NCBI GenBank assembly: GCA_030431515.1 | Contig: JAUIIX010000009.1 | Coordinates: 1-64,000 of the forward strand | Direction: 5' to 3' | DNA: 64,000 nucleotides | Source of the DNA: a bacterium | GTDB lineage: Bacteria > Bacteroidota > Ignavibacteria > Kapaibacteriales > UBA2268 | Shown: piece by piece, positions 21,173-61,012 of the stretch | Position numbering within the stretch: position 1 is the first letter of the stretch | How the letters are laid out: each line of letters opens with the position of its first letter | Made by a program: the position numbers and the translations under genes | The notes under the pieces: model-generated | Database searches by the model: none | What the model was told of the DNA's origin: nothing | Seen by the model: only the letters and a program-made list of their open reading frames with translations

Positions 21173-21427
21173 TTAATTTAAATCAATAACTATTCTTATT
21201 ATTTCATCTTTTTGCATATTATTTTGAATACAAATTTGATTTATAATTGCTGATAGTGTTCCAACTTTTAACGGCTTATGATTTGGTAATGAAATAGAAA
21301 ATTTTGAATCATTTATTGTTTTAGAGAATTTTATATGACTACCCCTCTGATGAACAAAATTATAATTCAAATATTTTAAAAGTTTGATAAAATCATTACT
21401 ATCTAAATTTCTAGGAATTTTTGTCAT
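21173..21427 (-). CDS. hicA: HicA-family toxin
   Basis: LKYLNYNFVHQRGSHIKFSK...SLPNHKPLKVGTLSAIINQ. Confidence 0.85.
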   Translation of the reverse strand: MTKIPRNLDSNDFIKLLKYLNYNFVHQRGSHIKFSKTINDSKFSISLPNHKPLKVGTLSAIINQICIQNNMQKDEIIRIVIDLN

Positions 21428-21636
21428 ACAGACAATAATTCCTCTTTTACAAATTGTAATCTAATTGTTTTAGGCGAATATTCTTCATCATAAAAATGGC
21501 ATTCAACTGCATCTTTAACCATTAACTTTAGTTCTTCTAAAGTGTCACCTTGAGTAATAATTGAAAATTCGAGAGATGATGCAGAATACCCACCCTCTAA
21601 ATCTTCTTCCACAATAAATGTTATTTCTTTATCCAT
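21424..21636 (-). CDS. hicB: HicB-family antitoxin
   Basis: ITFIVEEDLEGGYSASSLEFSIITQGDTLEELKLMVKDAVECHF; overlaps hicA by 4 bp. Confidence 0.85.
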   Translation of the reverse strand: MDKEITFIVEEDLEGGYSASSLEFSIITQGDTLEELKLMVKDAVECHFYDEEYSPKTIRLQFVKEELLSV

Positions 21637-22099: not shown

Positions 22100-22141
22100 T
22101 AAAAAAGGTTCATTCTTTGGGGTAAGAATGAACCTTTTTTT
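22100..22141. terminator. Strong hairpin terminator
   Basis: AAAAAAGGTTCATTCTT-TGGGGT-AAGAATGAACCTTTTTTT. Confidence 0.8.
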
Positions 22142-22157
22142 GAATAGAATAATAATT

Positions 22158-23243
22158 CTATTTATACTTCATTTTCAATAATCTTCCATTATCCCCACCA
22201 GAAATATATAAATTACCATCATGTAACTCAATATCCTTAATTGAACTATTTTCATCTTCATATATTGTTTTTATAATATTTGAATTCTTTATAGATTTAT
22301 ATTCAAATTCTTTTACAATAGCAGTGTTAAAACCGATTCCTAATAGTAATTTATCACCTACAAATTCAATATCGCTAATACTTTTTTTAACTCCAACATC
22401 AAACCATTCCCAACTTACTCCATTATCGGATGTTTTGGCAAGTATTCCTCCAACTCCATAAATCCAAAGTTCTTGTTTATGCTTTTTTATATTCCAAACA
22501 CCTTTATCTTCTACTTCTACAAACTCGCTCCAACTATCTCCAAAATCAGTAGATTGTAAAAACAATTCCCTTTTATAAGTAGAGTCTGGTTTTTTATTGA
22601 GTACACTATTTGGGTCATCATCAGTTTTTATCCATTTTGACACGTTATTTAAACTATCAACAACTTGGACATATAGATTGTTACCAGACATCATGTAATT
22701 TTTGTCTCCATTACTTGAATAATCTATACTATAGTACAAATACAAGATGTTGTCAAATAGAAATAAATTACTGTATTTATAATTATAACCATCTACTTTT
22801 GAAATATCTTTTACAATCCAACTTTTTCCATAATCTCTCGAAATTGAAATCTTATTGTTAAAATGACTAAGAACAATATTATTTCCTTGAATTGCTATTG
22901 AGTTATTATATGAACCGTTATTTTTCAATTCAAAATATCCAACATCTATATCTTTAATTTCATTAGTTTTTGGATTTACTTTAAATAAAATTCCACCTCT
23001 ACTCACTGCCCAAAGAAACTTTCCATCATATTCAATGTCTTCAATATCTTCAACTGTTCCAAAGTTTAAATTTTTCCAATTTTTGCCACCATCTTTTGTG
23101 TAAAACAAATATGGTTTGCTTATAGTCATTGCATATATTATATCATTATTTATAACACAAGTTTCAGTTATAGTTGAATACTTATGATAAAGTAACTCTT
23201 CTTGTGAAAATAACATTTGCATTAATAGCATTAAAATAATCAT
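22158..23243 (-). CDS. Secreted YCF48/BNR-like repeat protein without T9SS tail
   Basis: Signal peptide; FYTKDGGKNWKNLNFG, SRDYGKSWIVKD, STDFGDSWSEF, TSDNGVSWEWFDVG. Confidence 0.75.
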   Translation of the reverse strand: MIILMLLMQMLFSQEELLYHKYSTITETCVINNDIIYAMTISKPYLFYTKDGGKNWKNLNFGTVEDIEDIEYDGKFLWAVSRGGILFKVNPKTNEIKDIDVGYFELKNNGSYNNSIAIQGNNIVLSHFNNKISISRDYGKSWIVKDISKVDGYNYKYSNLFLFDNILYLYYSIDYSSNGDKNYMMSGNNLYVQVVDSLNNVSKWIKTDDDPNSVLNKKPDSTYKRELFLQSTDFGDSWSEFVEVEDKGVWNIKKHKQELWIYGVGGILAKTSDNGVSWEWFDVGVKKSISDIEFVGDKLLLGIGFNTAIVKEFEYKSIKNSNIIKTIYEDENSSIKDIELHDGNLYISGGDNGRLLKMKYK

Positions 23244-23255
23244 TTTTTTTATTCC

Positions 23256-24710
23256 TTAATTTGTTATAAATCTTTTTGTTAGATAATCGCCTTTATTACT
23301 TGTTAATTCAAGAATATAAATGCCTTTTGGTAAATTATTCAAAATCAATTTTTTAGTAAACTCACCTTTGCCAACCTCTTGACTAAAAAATGTTCCCACT
23401 TCTTTTCCAAGCATATCATAAACTTTGATATTAATTTTCAGATCAACATTAATTTTTAAGTTTACATTAATTTCTGAATTATCATTCCCAACATAAACAT
23501 TATTTATTTCAATATTCTGTAGTTTGTTAGAGCATAATCCTAAAAAGTTTTCTGCTGGTACTTCTTCACATAATTCCTTAGACTTATTCTTCAAAATTGC
23601 CAATTCATATTCTAAAATTCTTTTATATCTATCAGGTAAAACTTTTGCAAGACATTCTGTAACAGGATACCATACAACAACTTTATCAATATAATTACTA
23701 TTACTAATATTAACTACAACAGGAATTAAATTCAAGTTATTTAATAGCCCATCTACATTTTTGATGTTATTATTGTATTGACTACAATGAATTACTGCTT
23801 CATTCTCCATCCCTTTAATCTTAAATGCTACCAAATAAGGTAAAGGTAAATTCTCTTTTGTTTTTTCTAAATCATTATAATTCTCAACTTTAATTTGTTG
23901 ATAATCATTAATGTAATCAGTTGTCTCTAAGCTGTCTTCAATCATCCAATAATCTACATTCTTGATGCTTTCCAAGTCCAAATATACTGTTTGCAATATT
24001 TCAATAGTATCCATTGCAGGAATATAATTTTCTCGTATAAATGCTTGAACTTTTGATGAATTTCTATAGTTTGTATTATATTTCAAACTATATTTTGCAA
24101 ATAAATCACTTGCAATAAACTTGTAATTCAACACTTCATTTTCAAACTTAATTCCAAATTTTATTGCTTCATCTGCGGTAATAACTGGTATTATAACACC
24201 AGGTATTGACCCATTTGTAGATTTACTTAGTATCAATTCATCAGGGTTTGAATAACCTTTGCCTGTACTTACAAGGAAACCTGAAAAAGTAGTTGATTCT
24301 GACTCTATATTTTTTGAGATAGGAGACTTTATTCTAAAATTCTCATCTCTGTAAGTAATATACTTATTCTCATTAACTTTAGGCAATACAGTTTTTTTAA
24401 CTATATTCTTTACATCATCAATCCCAACAATCGTAGTCAGAGTACCAGAATGTTCGTATTGTTTATTGCCACTTTCTTCTGCTTTAATTTGAGCAATATT
24501 ATCATTGATTTTGAGATTTGCAATTTCAACTTTTTCATCACTATAAAAATAATAGATAGAAGTTATCGCAGTAATCAAAGCAAACAGCAAAGGAATATAG
24601 AGTTTAAATCTATTTTTATTAAAGAATTTCATTTCGATTTCCTCTTTATCAAATGGAACATTTTTTACACCTTCTTTATATGAGTTAAAATATTTATCTA
24701 AATTATTCAT
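23256..24710 (-). CDS. Single-pass membrane protein with anti-sigma-like topology and a T9SS-type C-terminal domain
   Basis: About 35-aa N-terminal segment, one TM helix (KLYIPLLFALITAITSIYYFY), large extracytoplasmic region, C-term IKVYDMLGKEVGTFFSQEVGKGEFTKKLILNNLPKGIYILELTSNKGDYLTKRFITN. ATGA overlap with the upstream sigma gene. Confidence 0.7.
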   Translation of the reverse strand: MNNLDKYFNSYKEGVKNVPFDKEEIEMKFFNKNRFKLYIPLLFALITAITSIYYFYSDEKVEIANLKINDNIAQIKAEESGNKQYEHSGTLTTIVGIDDVKNIVKKTVLPKVNENKYITYRDENFRIKSPISKNIESESTTFSGFLVSTGKGYSNPDELILSKSTNGSIPGVIIPVITADEAIKFGIKFENEVLNYKFIASDLFAKYSLKYNTNYRNSSKVQAFIRENYIPAMDTIEILQTVYLDLESIKNVDYWMIEDSLETTDYINDYQQIKVENYNDLEKTKENLPLPYLVAFKIKGMENEAVIHCSQYNNNIKNVDGLLNNLNLIPVVVNISNSNYIDKVVVWYPVTECLAKVLPDRYKRILEYELAILKNKSKELCEEVPAENFLGLCSNKLQNIEINNVYVGNDNSEINVNLKINVDLKINIKVYDMLGKEVGTFFSQEVGKGEFTKKLILNNLPKGIYILELTSNKGDYLTKRFITN

Positions 24711-25183
24711 TTTTCTACTCCCATTAACTCTTTTAATTCTTGCATTCCTCTTGAAATCCTCGACTTAACTGTTTCTTCACTAACACCTTGCAAATCAGCA
24801 ATTTCCTTTCTCGAAAACCCTTGGATTTTCGTCAATATAATTGCTTCTGCTTTATCTTCACTAATTTTGCTAAGCATATCAAAAAGAACCTTAATATCAA
24901 ATTGAACTTCAGAATCAAAGTTATCAATCAAAAACTCTTCATTAATCTCTTGATTTGATTTATTCTTTTTACTTAACTTAAAGAACTCTCGCCTCAAAGT
25001 TGTAAACATAAACGATTTCAAAGAATTATCATCTCTGATAGAATTAAGATTTTTCAGAGTACTATAAATCGAATCGCTCATTATATCATAAGCATTCTGT
25101 CTATTCTTTGTTAAGAATAGAGAATAGTTCCAAAGTTGAACTCTGATTTTTTCAAACTCTTCTAAAAACCTGTTTTTCTTCAT
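24707..25183 (-). CDS. ECF-type sigma-70 family factor
   Basis: Sigma2 region (NRQNAYDIMSDSIYSTLKNL...LKSFMFTTLRREF) and sigma4 (EAIILTKIQGFSRKEIADLQGVSEETVKSRISRGMQELKEL). Confidence 0.9.
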   Translation of the reverse strand: MKKNRFLEEFEKIRVQLWNYSLFLTKNRQNAYDIMSDSIYSTLKNLNSIRDDNSLKSFMFTTLRREFFKLSKKNKSNQEINEEFLIDNFDSEVQFDIKVLFDMLSKISEDKAEAIILTKIQGFSRKEIADLQGVSEETVKSRISRGMQELKELMGVEK

Positions 25184-56176: not shown

Positions 56177-59100
56177 ATGCAAAATAAGAATATTGAAGAG
56201 CTGATATCAAAGAACCTTGAACTAAAAGCTATACTAAAAACTAATCCTGATTTAATTTTTGTTTTAGATAATGACAGTAATTTTTTAGAGGTATATACAA
56301 ATACTCCTGATTTATTATTTATGCCTATTGAAGAATTTATAGGTAAAAATCTAAGTATAATCATACCACCTGATATATACGATATCATTAAAACCAAAAT
56401 AGAAGATGCTAAAAATAGCTCAACTTTACAAGTTGCTAAATATGATTTGATGATTTTAGACAAAAAATCATATTTCGAAGCAAGAATTCTTTCATTTGAA
56501 GGAGATAAATTAATTTGTATAATTAGAGACATAACAGAAGAAGAAAATTTAAGAATTCAATTAGAAGAAAGAAGTAAATTATTAGATTCGATAACTAAAG
56601 CCAGCCCTTTTTATATATATGTATATGATTTTATTAATAATGAATTTATTTTTAACAATGTAGATTTTTCTGATTATTTTCATGTTGATGATGAAATTTT
56701 AGATATATTTGAAGTATATAGAAGATTATTTCATAAGGATGATTTAAATAAATTTTTAGAAAATCGAAAAAGATTATTAGAAAAAAATACGGATGATACA
56801 TATTCAACAGAAGTCAGAGTATTAGATAAAGAAAATAATTTTATTTGGAATAGAATAACTAATAAAATATTTGAACGAGATGAAAATAATAATCCAACTA
56901 AATTATTAGGAATTATTGAAAATATTGAAAAGCAAAAAGAAAATGAATCAAAGATAATTGAAAGTAGTTTATTTATTAATAATGTCTTATCTATATCACC
57001 TGTTTTCATTGGTATATTTGATAATAATAGTTTGAAATTATCATATATTAATAAAAGGATAGAAGATAGACTGTCTTTCAACTTACAAGAAATCAATGAG
57101 TTTGAAAAATCTTTCTTTTCTTTGATAAATGAAGATGATAAAGAAGAAGTTTTAAATAGTATTATTGATTTATTAAGTTCGAATAAAGATAAAAGCGTAA
57201 ATGTTGAATTTAGGATAAAAGATAAAAGCGGTAAATTTATTTGGCTACAATCAACATTCAGTATATTTGAGAAAAATGCAGACTCAACCAAAATTGTCGG
57301 TGTTGGTATTGAAATCAGCGAACAAAAAGAAAATGAGTTAAAAATTCAAGACCTTGAAAAAAGATGGCAATTTGCAATTGAAGGTAGTGGAGATGGTGTT
57401 TGGGATTGGAATACAAAAACTAATGAAGTATTCTTTTCTAAAATGTGGAAATCTATGATTGGCTTTGAAGATCATGAATTAAAAAATGAATTTGAAGAAT
57501 GGAATAATAGGATTCACCCAGACGACAAAGAAGAAGTATTTTCTAAATTAAATGATTATTTTGAAGGGAAACAAGATGTATATGTTTCACAAAATAGGTT
57601 GTTATGCAAAGATGGTACATATAAATGGATATTAGCAAGAGGTCAAATAATTGAAAGAGATGAAGAAGGAAATCCATTAAGGATTATTGGTACTCATACT
57701 GATATTAATGAATTATTATTAACTCAAGAGAAGTTAATTAATAGTGAAAAAAGATTCAAAAATATTATTGATGCTGCTGGTGAATATATCTGGGAAGCCG
57801 ATGAATTTAGTCGTTATACTTTTGTTTCTGATAGGTTTTATAAGTTGTTAGGTTATACTAAAGAAGAAGTAATTGGTAAGTCACCTTATGACTTTATGAT
57901 TGATGAAGATAAAAGGAAATTACAAAGACAATTCTTTTCAATTAGAAGATCTAAATCAAAATTTAAAGATATTTCATTCAAAATTAGAAGAAAAGATGGA
58001 CAATTTGTTCAACACTCAATAAATGGAAGACCATTATTAGATTCTAACGACGAAATCTTTGCTTATATTGGAGTTGGGGCAGATATTACTGAAAGAGTTG
58101 AACGAGAAATGGAATTAGTAAAAACTCAACAAAAATTAAGTAGTATATTAAATGAAATCAATGATGTTATTTCATCAGTTTCATTACCAGATATGAATTA
58201 TATTTATATTTCTCCTTCAGCTGAATTATTATTTGGTTACTCAACTGATGAATGGTTTAAAAATTCAAATTTATGGAAAGAAGTAATTTATAAAGACGAT
58301 AAATATATAATAGATAAAATAGATAAATTACTCCAAGAAAATGGAAATTTTAAAGATATTGTTTATAGGATAGTTACTAAACATGGTGAATTAAAATGGG
58401 TGAATAGTTCAGGAAGTATAATAAAAGGTAAAAATGGTGAAAGCGATAGAATTGATGGAATTGTAAAAGACATAACTAAACAAAAAATTCAAGAAAATGA
58501 AATACGTTATCGTGAATCTATATTTAACTCATTCGTTACTTTAGCTCCCTATGGAATAGCACTAACAGATCTCAAAACCGGTAAATTTATCGAAATTAAT
58601 GATAAAATATTAGAACCAACTGGCTATACAAAAGTAGAATTTTTAAATCTTAGTTATTGGGATTTAACTCCAAAAAAATATGAAGAACAAGAAAGAATTC
58701 AATTAGATGATTTGAACAAAAAGGGATCCTATGGACCTTATCAAAAAGAGTATATTAGAAAAGATGGTACTACTTATCCTGTTTTACTAAATGGAATTAG
58801 AATTAAAGATAACAATAATGTTGATTTAATTTGGAGTATAGTTGAAGATATTTCTGATAGAGTTGAAAAAGAAAAAGAAATCAAAGAAAAAAATAATAGA
58901 TTAGAACTCGCTGAGAAAACTGCAAAATTAGGGAATTGGGTAGTTGATTTAGTAAATGGAACTGTAACTTGGTCTGATGAAACAAAAAGAATCCACGAAG
59001 TTGATATGGATTTTGTACCTGACATTGAAACAGGTATTAATTTTTATGCACCCGAAGTAAGAGATCATGTTACTAATGTAATTACTGAAGCAATTAAAAC

Positions 59101-61012
59101 AGGTAAAGGTTGGGAATTTGAATTACCTTTAATCACTGCTAAAAATAACAGAGTCTGGGTTAATGCTATAGCTGAAGTATTGCAAGAAAATGGAGTTACA
59201 ACTAAAATTTTTGGTACTTTTCAAGACATAACCGATAGAATTAGATTACAAGAAGAAAGGGATAGTATTTTTAATATGTCTTTAGATATGATTTCAGTTT
59301 GTGGGACTGATGCATACTTTAAGCAATTAAATGATGCTTGGTCAGAAACCTTAGAATATTCGATAGATGAGATAAAAGCTAAACCACTTTGGAATTTTAT
59401 ACATCCAGATGATATTAATAGAACTCAAGAAGCATTTATTAATGTTATGAATGAACCAGTGTTAAATTTTGAGAATAGATATATTACAAAATCAGGCAAA
59501 ATTGTTTGGTTATCGTGGAATGCTCAATCTAATCCAGATGATATGTTAATATATTCAATTACAAGAAATGTGACGACTGCGAAGGAAAGAGAGCGGGAAC
59601 TAAAGTTAGCAAGAATAGCTGCTGAAGAAGCAAATAAGACTAAGAGTGTCTTTTTAGCTAATATGAGCCATGAAATAAGAACACCAATGAACTCAATTTT
59701 AGGATTTGGTGAAATATTGTTAAATCGTCTTGAAAACAAAGAAAATGTAGAGTATGTTAGTTCAATGATGTCGGCAGGTAAAACTTTATTAACTCTTATA
59801 AATGATATTTTAGATTTATCTAAAATAGAAGCAGGAAAATTAAATTTAGAGTTAAAAGATACCAATGTTAAAACAATGATAAAAGAGCTAAGTAATATGT
59901 TTTCAATACTAGCTTCAAAAAAACATTTAACATTTAAATATTTAATCGACGATGCTTTTCCAAAAGTATTAGAAGTAGATGAAATAAGAATTAGACAAAT
60001 ACTATTAAATTTAATAGGGAATGCAATAAAATTTACTGATAAGGGTGGGATAGAGATAGTTCTAAAGCATAAAATCAACAAGAATGATTTAGTAGATTTA
60101 GAAATATCTGTAATTGATACAGGAATTGGCGTTAAAGAAAGCAATTTGAATCTTATTTTTGAAGAATTTAAACAACAAGATGATCAATCAACTCGAAAAT
60201 ATGGTGGAACTGGTTTAGGATTGTCTATTTCTAAAAAACTAGCAAATATGATGAATGGTGAAATTAAAGTAAAAAGTGAATTAGGAAAAGGATCTGAATT
60301 TACTTTATTACTATCTAATTTAAAATATAAAGCAGAGGAACAATTTAAAATTCAAAATGCTTATAATATCACATTCATTAATTCTAAATTATTAATAGTT
60401 GATGATAATGAATTGAATTTATTACTTCTTGAAACAATACTAAAGCAAATTGGAATATTAAATTATGATAAGGCATATACAGGAAAAGAAGCTATCAGTT
60501 TCATGGAAAAAAATACTTATGATTTAGTGCTGATGGATATTCAAATGCCTGAAATGGATGGAATAGAGGCAACTCAGATTATAAAAAATGATATGAAAAT
60601 CAATACTCCAATTATTGCATTATCTGCATTAGCTATGAGTCATAATATTGAAGACAATGCAAAGTATTTTGATGATTATCTAACCAAACCAATTGAATTA
60701 AAAGTAGCATTAGAAGTTTTAAAAAAATATTTAGAATATGAAATAAGTGAAGTTAGCAAAGCAAGCAAAAGCATAAAAGGTTTTGTATCACTTGAAGATA
60801 TTAATTTTATAAAAAATAATCTCAAATTAGATTTGAATAATGTGATTGATACAATGCAAATTAATGAAGTGAATGAAATTGCAAATGAGATTCTTCAAAT
60901 TGGTAAAGAGGCAAATAATAATAATATCATTGAATTTGCTAATACATTGTTTGAATATTCAGATAGTTTTGATATAGAGATGATTACTAAGCATTTAGAA
61001 TTATTAATATAA
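56177..61012 (+). CDS. Soluble multi-PAS hybrid histidine kinase (about nine PAS units, HisKA, HATPase, REC)
   Basis: Serial PAS-like units; H-box LANMSHEIRTPMNSILGFGEIL; GTGLGLSISKKLANMMNGEI; REC LLIVDDNELNLLLLE...LVLMDIQMPEMDG; no obvious TM segment. Confidence 0.92.
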   Translation: MQNKNIEELISKNLELKAILKTNPDLIFVLDNDSNFLEVYTNTPDLLFMPIEEFIGKNLSIIIPPDIYDIIKTKIEDAKNSSTLQVAKYDLMILDKKSYFEARILSFEGDKLICIIRDITEEENLRIQLEERSKLLDSITKASPFYIYVYDFINNEFIFNNVDFSDYFHVDDEILDIFEVYRRLFHKDDLNKFLENRKRLLEKNTDDTYSTEVRVLDKENNFIWNRITNKIFERDENNNPTKLLGIIENIEKQKENESKIIESSLFINNVLSISPVFIGIFDNNSLKLSYINKRIEDRLSFNLQEINEFEKSFFSLINEDDKEEVLNSIIDLLSSNKDKSVNVEFRIKDKSGKFIWLQSTFSIFEKNADSTKIVGVGIEISEQKENELKIQDLEKRWQFAIEGSGDGVWDWNTKTNEVFFSKMWKSMIGFEDHELKNEFEEWNNRIHPDDKEEVFSKLNDYFEGKQDVYVSQNRLLCKDGTYKWILARGQIIERDEEGNPLRIIGTHTDINELLLTQEKLINSEKRFKNIIDAAGEYIWEADEFSRYTFVSDRFYKLLGYTKEEVIGKSPYDFMIDEDKRKLQRQFFSIRRSKSKFKDISFKIRRKDGQFVQHSINGRPLLDSNDEIFAYIGVGADITERVEREMELVKTQQKLSSILNEINDVISSVSLPDMNYIYISPSAELLFGYSTDEWFKNSNLWKEVIYKDDKYIIDKIDKLLQENGNFKDIVYRIVTKHGELKWVNSSGSIIKGKNGESDRIDGIVKDITKQKIQENEIRYRESIFNSFVTLAPYGIALTDLKTGKFIEINDKILEPTGYTKVEFLNLSYWDLTPKKYEEQERIQLDDLNKKGSYGPYQKEYIRKDGTTYPVLLNGIRIKDNNNVDLIWSIVEDISDRVEKEKEIKEKNNRLELAEKTAKLGNWVVDLVNGTVTWSDETKRIHEVDMDFVPDIETGINFYAPEVRDHVTNVITEAIKTGKGWEFELPLITAKNNRVWVNAIAEVLQENGVTTKIFGTFQDITDRIRLQEERDSIFNMSLDMISVCGTDAYFKQLNDAWSETLEYSIDEIKAKPLWNFIHPDDINRTQEAFINVMNEPVLNFENRYITKSGKIVWLSWNAQSNPDDMLIYSITRNVTTAKERERELKLARIAAEEANKTKSVFLANMSHEIRTPMNSILGFGEILLNRLENKENVEYVSSMMSAGKTLLTLINDILDLSKIEAGKLNLELKDTNVKTMIKELSNMFSILASKKHLTFKYLIDDAFPKVLEVDEIRIRQILLNLIGNAIKFTDKGGIEIVLKHKINKNDLVDLEISVIDTGIGVKESNLNLIFEEFKQQDDQSTRKYGGTGLGLSISKKLANMMNGEIKVKSELGKGSEFTLLLSNLKYKAEEQFKIQNAYNITFINSKLLIVDDNELNLLLLETILKQIGILNYDKAYTGKEAISFMEKNTYDLVLMDIQMPEMDGIEATQIIKNDMKINTPIIALSALAMSHNIEDNAKYFDDYLTKPIELKVALEVLKKYLEYEISEVSKASKSIKGFVSLEDINFIKNNLKLDLNNVIDTMQINEVNEIANEILQIGKEANNNNIIEFANTLFEYSDSFDIEMITKHLELLI

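Follow-up and report, generated by a model that had tools for sequence, protein, structure and literature searches.

Two described systems come closest to the arrangement considered here. Dma anti-sigma factors, which are encoded next to their sigma factors, combine a transmembrane (TM) helix with a disordered tether and a beta-barrel end, and act as inhibitors (PMC13088901). In the PorA-PorXY-SigP pathway of Porphyromonas gingivalis, a protein carrying a T9SS C-terminal domain (CTD) influences an ECF sigma factor pathway through a two-component system (PMC7712824). Neither Dma nor PorA has the architecture of a sigma partner that itself ends in a T9SS CTD. Our literature search, which is weak evidence given its limited coverage, found no anti-sigma factor with a T9SS CTD and no internally initiated anti-sigma isoform. 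How the state of the T9SS and of the cell surface is sensed in Bacteroidota-type bacteria is largely open, and a T9SS-tagged, anti-sigma-like family offers a direct candidate for this sensor role.

An ECF sigma factor paired with a CTD protein

The window analyzed here, a 64,000-nucleotide stretch of a contig, contains such a candidate in a three-gene operon made up of an ECF sigma factor, a membrane protein with a T9SS CTD (hereafter the CTD protein), and a secreted YCF48/BNR-like protein (Table 1). The sequence-only reading had described an ATGA overlap between the sigma stop and the CTD-protein start and a 12-nt gap between the CTD-protein and YCF48/BNR-like genes; its coordinates, frames, overlap, and gap were all correct when the sequence was reread. 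The host genome (3.55 Mb, 160 contigs) contains about 150 CTD matches and 23 Sigma70_r4_2 matches, not every one of which is an ECF sigma factor. Elsewhere in the window, two small overlapping ORFs of 84 and 70 aa (21173-21636(-)) resemble a HicA/HicB toxin-antitoxin pair, and a hybrid histidine kinase of 1611 aa, in which many PAS domains accompany HisKA, HATPase, and receiver domains, is encoded at 56177-61012(+).

Table 1. Features of the sigma operon, in window coordinates
Feature	Position	Strand	Basis
ECF-type promoter, GCACCCTTTT-N12-TCTCTAA	25206..25234	(-)	Motif search; -10 diverged from family consensus CACTTA
ECF sigma factor, 158 aa	24707..25183	(-)	Pfam and NCBIfam profile matches, tree of sigmas
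N-in single-TM protein, 484 aa, T9SS CTD end, proposed anti-sigma (long form)	23256..24710	(-)	
N-terminal segment on the cytoplasmic side (residues 1-34), with motif L..YF..Ak....ls..E.r.Ll; proposed to bind sigma	24609..24710	(-)	Cross-family protein conservation, two modelled helices
SD-like AGAGGA, 7 nt ahead of in-frame ATG	24640..24645	(-)	Family-wide statistics
Internal ATG (M27), at which a short form of 458 aa lacking the sigma-facing segment is proposed to begin (MKFFNKNRFKLYIPLLFALITAITS...)	24630..24632	(-)	SD energy -6.0
Transmembrane helix, residues 35-57	24540..24608	(-)	AlphaFold helix, topology statistics
Tether, residues 58-155, predicted disordered	24246..24539	(-)	pLDDT 25-30, family tether composition
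Core domain, residues 326-399 (NLIPV..VWY..PDRY..ELC...LC), used for profile A1	23514..23735	(-)	Alignment
T9SS type-A CTD, residues 400-484	23259..23513	(-)	Pfam, NCBIfam, AlphaFold, structure comparison
Secreted YCF48/BNR-like protein, third gene	22158..23243	(-)	Profile match, synteny
Hairpin AAAAAAGGTTCATTCTT..AAGAATGAACCTTTTTTT, likely bidirectional terminator at operon end	22101..22143	.	Read from sequence

The window sigma factor has regions 2 and 4 and lacks region 3, as defines an ECF sigma factor. It scores above the cutoffs of Sigma70_r4_2 (47.6 bits; cutoff, 25.7) and TIGR02937 (61.2 bits; cutoff, 42.9) and reaches only 18.6 bits against the region 2 profile (cutoff, 24). A homologue search recovered relatives of its 484-aa partner that are alike beyond the CTD and nearly always have an ECF sigma gene directly upstream; their genomes are MAGs deposited under Ignavibacteria, Chlorobiota, or Bacteroidetes. 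Profile A1, which represents the core domain without the CTD body and extends into the PNP motif, matched in 53 of the 123 genomes of the order; when 396 genomes sampled evenly across the phylum were searched, its sole match outside the order was a weak one, in a genome of the same class. The aligned proteins share an N-terminal segment (MK.nLd.YF..A+....ls..Elr.L) and a TM helix, followed by a variable tether that leads to an LT.eEL..LGI motif, the core (consensus KLIPV..ILWY.PT.EF...LPERY...L..EL...AC....fD.CR..SGAI), and the CTD. The tether of L103:7631-9955(-) is lengthened by a short tandem repeat (GTGNREQ...), which fits an unconstrained spacer. L090, L103, and other loci have a partial duplication of the core in the ectodomain, visible as an additional, weaker match to the profile ahead of the main match. 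A further ORF, L099:4829-5086(+), consists of near-identical MVFIYSR repeats and probably represents a tandem repeat in the DNA, not a gene.

The sigma gene lies directly upstream in 83 of the 95 core ORFs examined, a count unbiased by the search because the query contained no sigma sequence, and a contig end cuts 4 others. This frequency excludes chance, and the ECF sigma and anti-sigma-like pair recognized in the sequence-only reading is thereby confirmed, at the level of sequence, as real and conserved. The two genes overlap in 45 of the 83 paired members, in 25 of them by exactly ATGA. In a tree with ten other ECF sigmas of the host genome, the paired sigmas split off cleanly (83/83; support, 0.86). 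Within genomes, sigma distances track the distances of both the N-terminal segment (z 5.8) and the CTD (z 5.9) of the partner, the observed values being reached in 0 of 2000 partner permutations in each case. Such co-tracking indicates that the cassette of sigma and partner, CTD included, is an old unit of inheritance. One genome also encodes the two as a fusion, in which a single ORF (L111:1968-4490(+)) joins the sigma factor to the CTD protein and carries a parvulin-type PPIase domain (92.6 bits) inside the ectodomain.

Topology and the T9SS C-terminal domain

The CTD protein is placed as class I anti-sigma factors are, directly downstream of the sigma gene and with a single N-in TM helix. 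Across the 83 paired proteins, the helix starts at a median residue of 54, and the net charge is +2.4 in the 15 residues preceding it and -0.6 after it. Unlike type-A CTD cargo, the long form has no N-terminal signal peptide, its hydrophobic segment beginning at about residue 54; among the host-genome CTD ORFs with complete 5' ends, 10 of 11 have the hydrophobic segment at residues 1 to 20, and the eleventh is another paired protein. One ectodomain column holds a cysteine in 61 members, with a partner cysteine at one of two columns (33 and 27 members) and a single exception, while 18 members lack all of the co-varying cysteines; the first 50 residues are cysteine-free in 78 of 83. The co-variation is a disulfide pattern and therefore places the ectodomain in an oxidizing, noncytoplasmic location.

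On the other side of the membrane, when an N-terminal segment profile trained on one family was applied to the 41 members of other families, 29 exceeded the 99th percentile of shuffled sequences, and the region upstream of the helix is therefore translated and selected as protein. A Pfam search of this segment in the window protein and its relatives returned no match and no recognizable anti-sigma domain, so the label "anti-sigma" rests on genetics and topology. AlphaFold models the window protein with two N-terminal helices, a helix at residues 35 to 57, a long tether of low confidence, and a CTD of seven strands; its confidence is low overall (mean pLDDT, 46.6) and reaches 73 to 84 in the CTD. 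The homologue at L161 is modelled better (mean confidence, 66.1) with an identical layout.

Gene order and topology do not distinguish an inhibitor from an activator, and FecR-type proteins likewise follow ECF sigma genes and have an N-in TM helix. The partner could then be a FecR-like positive regulator that the sigma factor requires, with an outside signal received by the CTD-bearing part activating sigma. We consider this very unlikely, as the loci have neither a FecR nor a SusC/TonB partner and gave no FecR domain match. Moreover, the architectural relatives of the CTD protein, the Dma proteins, are inhibitors (PMC13088901).

The tail that the sequence-only reading had likened to a T9SS sorting domain on an N-in membrane protein is a genuine type-A CTD, above the cutoffs of both PF18962 (Por_Secre_tail; 37 bits; cutoff, 27) and TIGR04183 (34.1 bits; cutoff, 23). 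It aligns to the CTD profile only from position 8, the leading PNP motif being lost and reading YVGN; most relatives keep both PNP and the GxY motif. Por_Secre_tail is matched (E <= 0.01) by 79 of the 83 tails of sigma-paired members, a count that is slightly biased because profile A1 reaches the PNP motif. The expectation of a CTD fold was likewise borne out, in that AlphaFold predicted the domain and the CTD of L161 resembles solved T9SS CTDs, namely that of Tannerella forsythia mirolase (8qb1; TM 0.73, rmsd 2.6) and that within the T9SS translocon (8gl8; TM 0.64). The fold is Ig-like (further match, 8gl6_D; TMt 0.59). As for the machinery, SprA occurs in 122 of the 123 genomes of the order, hence nearly universally with or without the module, and the host genome has a PorU sortase match of 808 bits. 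The T9SS also occurs in members of the order that lack the module, which is therefore not part of the T9SS core. The components for export via SprA and for removal of the CTD by PorU are thus present, and their engagement by the CTD protein is predicted.

The strongest rival to a role for the T9SS treats the protein as a conventional periplasmic anti-sigma factor whose CTD serves as a structural Ig-like domain without export role, the T9SS being uninvolved. The Ig-like fold is indeed widespread, with many non-T9SS structural matches, and the window copy has lost its PNP motif. Compared with 28 cargo CTDs of the host genome, the anti-sigma CTDs also fall on a branch that excludes 27 of them (support, 0.90), and a QR signature seen in 42 of 83 anti-sigma CTDs occurs in 0 of 28 for the cargo; given this separate branch, the anti-sigma CTDs may have lost or changed their export function. 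However, the cargo in this comparison comes from one genome only, nearly all of the paired tails still match Por_Secre_tail, most retain PNP and GxY, and the T9SS is found in every tested host but one. In addition, three relatives without a sigma gene (L110:2511-3380(-), L220:1279-2175(-), and L222:1250-2125(-)) combine a normal signal peptide with the same core and CTD, and are apparently plain T9SS cargo. We favor the reading in which the CTD of the paired proteins engages the T9SS and regard the purely structural one as somewhat improbable.

Proposed internal start, shared promoter, and third gene

Two further features, an internal start signal within the CTD-protein gene and a promoter shared among the operons, go beyond the sequence-only reading, as do the sigma-less secreted relatives. 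A methionine lies within 8 residues of the TM start in 65 of the 83 members. The SD energy at TM-start ATGs is -4.80, compared with -1.36 at other in-frame ATGs (p 3e-16, although p-values for the internal start overstate independence because the members are related), -0.98 at out-of-frame ATGs, and -2.12 at first-ATG starts of the window ORFs. The signal is stronger than synonymous recoding predicts (shuffle z -7.0), peaks sharply 7 to 10 nt before the in-frame ATG and nowhere else, and is encoded via differing amino acids (KG, WR, QRR, and FRR). Within f1, the family to which the window belongs, 35 of 42 members have an SD with an ATG at the TM start, and the signal is weaker elsewhere (15 of 41); with a slightly wider SD criterion, it is found in 50 of 75 non-redundant members. 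In the control set of TM segments deep inside other ORFs, an ATG with SD is rare (13 of 96). A first control, made up of unrelated ORFs whose hydrophobic segment lies at residue 30 or beyond, was dropped, many of these ORFs being over-extended with the ATG as their true start. The long-form start, located at the sigma stop, also has an SD (mean, -3.87). In the window, the putative internal start reads GATAAAGAGGAAATCGAA followed directly by the ATG of M27, and the beginning of its predicted product is signal-peptide-like. We infer that most family members also make a shorter isoform that lacks the sigma-facing segment.

Translational pausing at SD-like sequences near TM segments has been proposed in the literature, and the sequence at the TM start could be a programmed translation pause that aids membrane insertion rather than a start site, all the more as some members keep the ATG without the SD. 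This explanation is unlikely, however, since the motif is confined to a narrow distance ahead of an in-frame ATG and the combination is rare at the deep TM segments of other proteins.

A promoter of the form GNAACYTTTT-N11-12-(G)CACTTAC precedes the sigma gene in nearly all paired operons. Cross-validation of the promoter matrix between families, each half being scored with the matrix of the other, placed 35 of 41 and 24 of 41 members above 99% of the null. Strict sites number 15 in 54 genomes, and 12 of them precede these sigma operons; a looser pattern finds all three paired sigma operons of the host genome, along with three sites for which no convincing target is apparent. The host-genome search found no promoter link to T9SS genes. 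A promoter shared by most paired operons implies autoregulation, and the sigma factor is predicted to transcribe chiefly its own operon. At L256 and L258, two identical-type ECF promoters stand in tandem, 185 nt apart, ahead of the same sigma operon.

The third gene is more variable. The sequence-only reading placed a secreted YCF48/BNR-like protein in this position, and the position stands; the profile match in the window is below cutoff (23.8 bits; cutoff, 27), and it is clear in syntenic relatives (50.9 to 60.7 bits). The proposed three-gene order holds in part, as the pair of sigma and CTD protein is conserved family-wide and the full triple is confined to a subclade of six loci, namely, the window and L091, L092, L093, L095, and L169, whose sigmas are the nearest relatives of the window sigma. 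Other subclades have different secreted third genes, which were read from the sequence as DUF1573-like or VIT-like. With so few operons carrying it and other genes in its place elsewhere, the YCF48-like protein cannot be the general signal. It might still be a specific ligand of the switch within the window's subclade, given that the six loci have such closely related sigmas; with most operons lacking the gene, we consider even this restricted role decidedly unlikely.

Proposed mechanism and comparison with known systems

We propose an autoregulated ECF operon that encodes a T9SS-tagged, trans-envelope anti-sigma factor together with a cargo-like twin from the internal start, a proposal that we judge to have an even chance of being correct. 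The surveillance switch suggested by the sequence-only reading, in which T9SS engagement of the CTD or binding of the YCF48-like protein would alter sigma release, is supported in part, namely in the pairing, in the N-in topology with a real CTD, and in the wide conservation. The long form would act as a single-pass anti-sigma protein that holds the sigma factor by its N-terminal segment, which would face the cytoplasm. Its extracytoplasmic part would be a T9SS-cargo-like ectodomain closed by the type-A CTD, and the CTD would position the protein's outer end at the T9SS or the outer membrane, as the beta-barrel does in Dma anti-sigma factors. In most members, the second ribosome-binding site at the TM start would yield a short form that keeps the ectodomain and CTD but lacks the sigma-facing segment, resulting in a cargo-like twin beside the sensor. 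Altered engagement of the ectodomain or CTD at the outer membrane, when the T9SS is blocked or saturated or the envelope is disturbed, would then be the trigger that releases the sigma factor, probably via proteolysis of the long form, and the freed sigma would transcribe its own operon, including the short form and the secreted third gene. More tentatively, a single gene may supply both a T9SS cargo (short form) and an anti-sigma factor bearing the same cargo (long form), with competition or partnership between twin and sensor reporting the state of the secretion route.

If the proposed mechanism holds, surface secretion may be wired straight to gene control in cells of this order, and the trans-envelope principle of the Dma proteins would extend to a second route to the outer membrane. 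The predicted internal start offers a simple genetic test of whether export of the twin controls the sigma factor, and with the promoter motif known, a reporter is easily built.

Among known systems, the Dma proteins are the closest in layout. Both families have an adjacent ECF sigma gene, a cytoplasmic N-terminal part, one TM helix, a long disordered tether, and an outer-membrane-type C-terminal end, and a fusion to the sigma factor occurs in Dma3 as well as in L111. By analogy, the CTD protein would work like a Dma protein. However, it ends in a T9SS CTD, and because no beta-barrel was found, the family was not classed as Dma; it also has a different conserved ectodomain, a conserved internal start, and a range limited to a single order. 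The cognate sigma group of the Dma proteins is ECF21, while the paired sigmas were compared only with the other ECF sigmas of the host genome. In that genome, three proteins of 405 to 427 aa encoded after other ECF sigma genes (L047:1715-2998, L048:1673-2890, and L049:1710-2948) have an internal hydrophobic segment and a barrel-like C terminus, possibly of Dma type; a Pfam search of the three gave only a sub-threshold OmpA match, and without a secure barrel, they were not accepted as Dma proteins.

The class I single-pass anti-sigma factors (RseA, RskA, and FecR types) resemble the CTD protein in being co-transcribed, N-in, and single-TM, whereas the latter has a short N-terminal segment without a known anti-sigma domain, a CTD end, and a second start. 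T9SS type-A cargo (TIGR04183/PF18962) shares the sequence and fold of the CTD, and the sigma-less relatives appear to be plain cargo of this kind; the long form differs in having, instead of a cleavable signal peptide, an N-in anchor with a cytoplasmic tail. With the PorA pathway, the family has in common a CTD-bearing protein and an ECF sigma pathway. PorA, however, carries a signal peptide and exerts its effect by way of a two-component system controlling T9SS genes, whereas here the CTD protein has a cytoplasmic segment beside its sigma factor, and the sole clear promoter target is its own operon.
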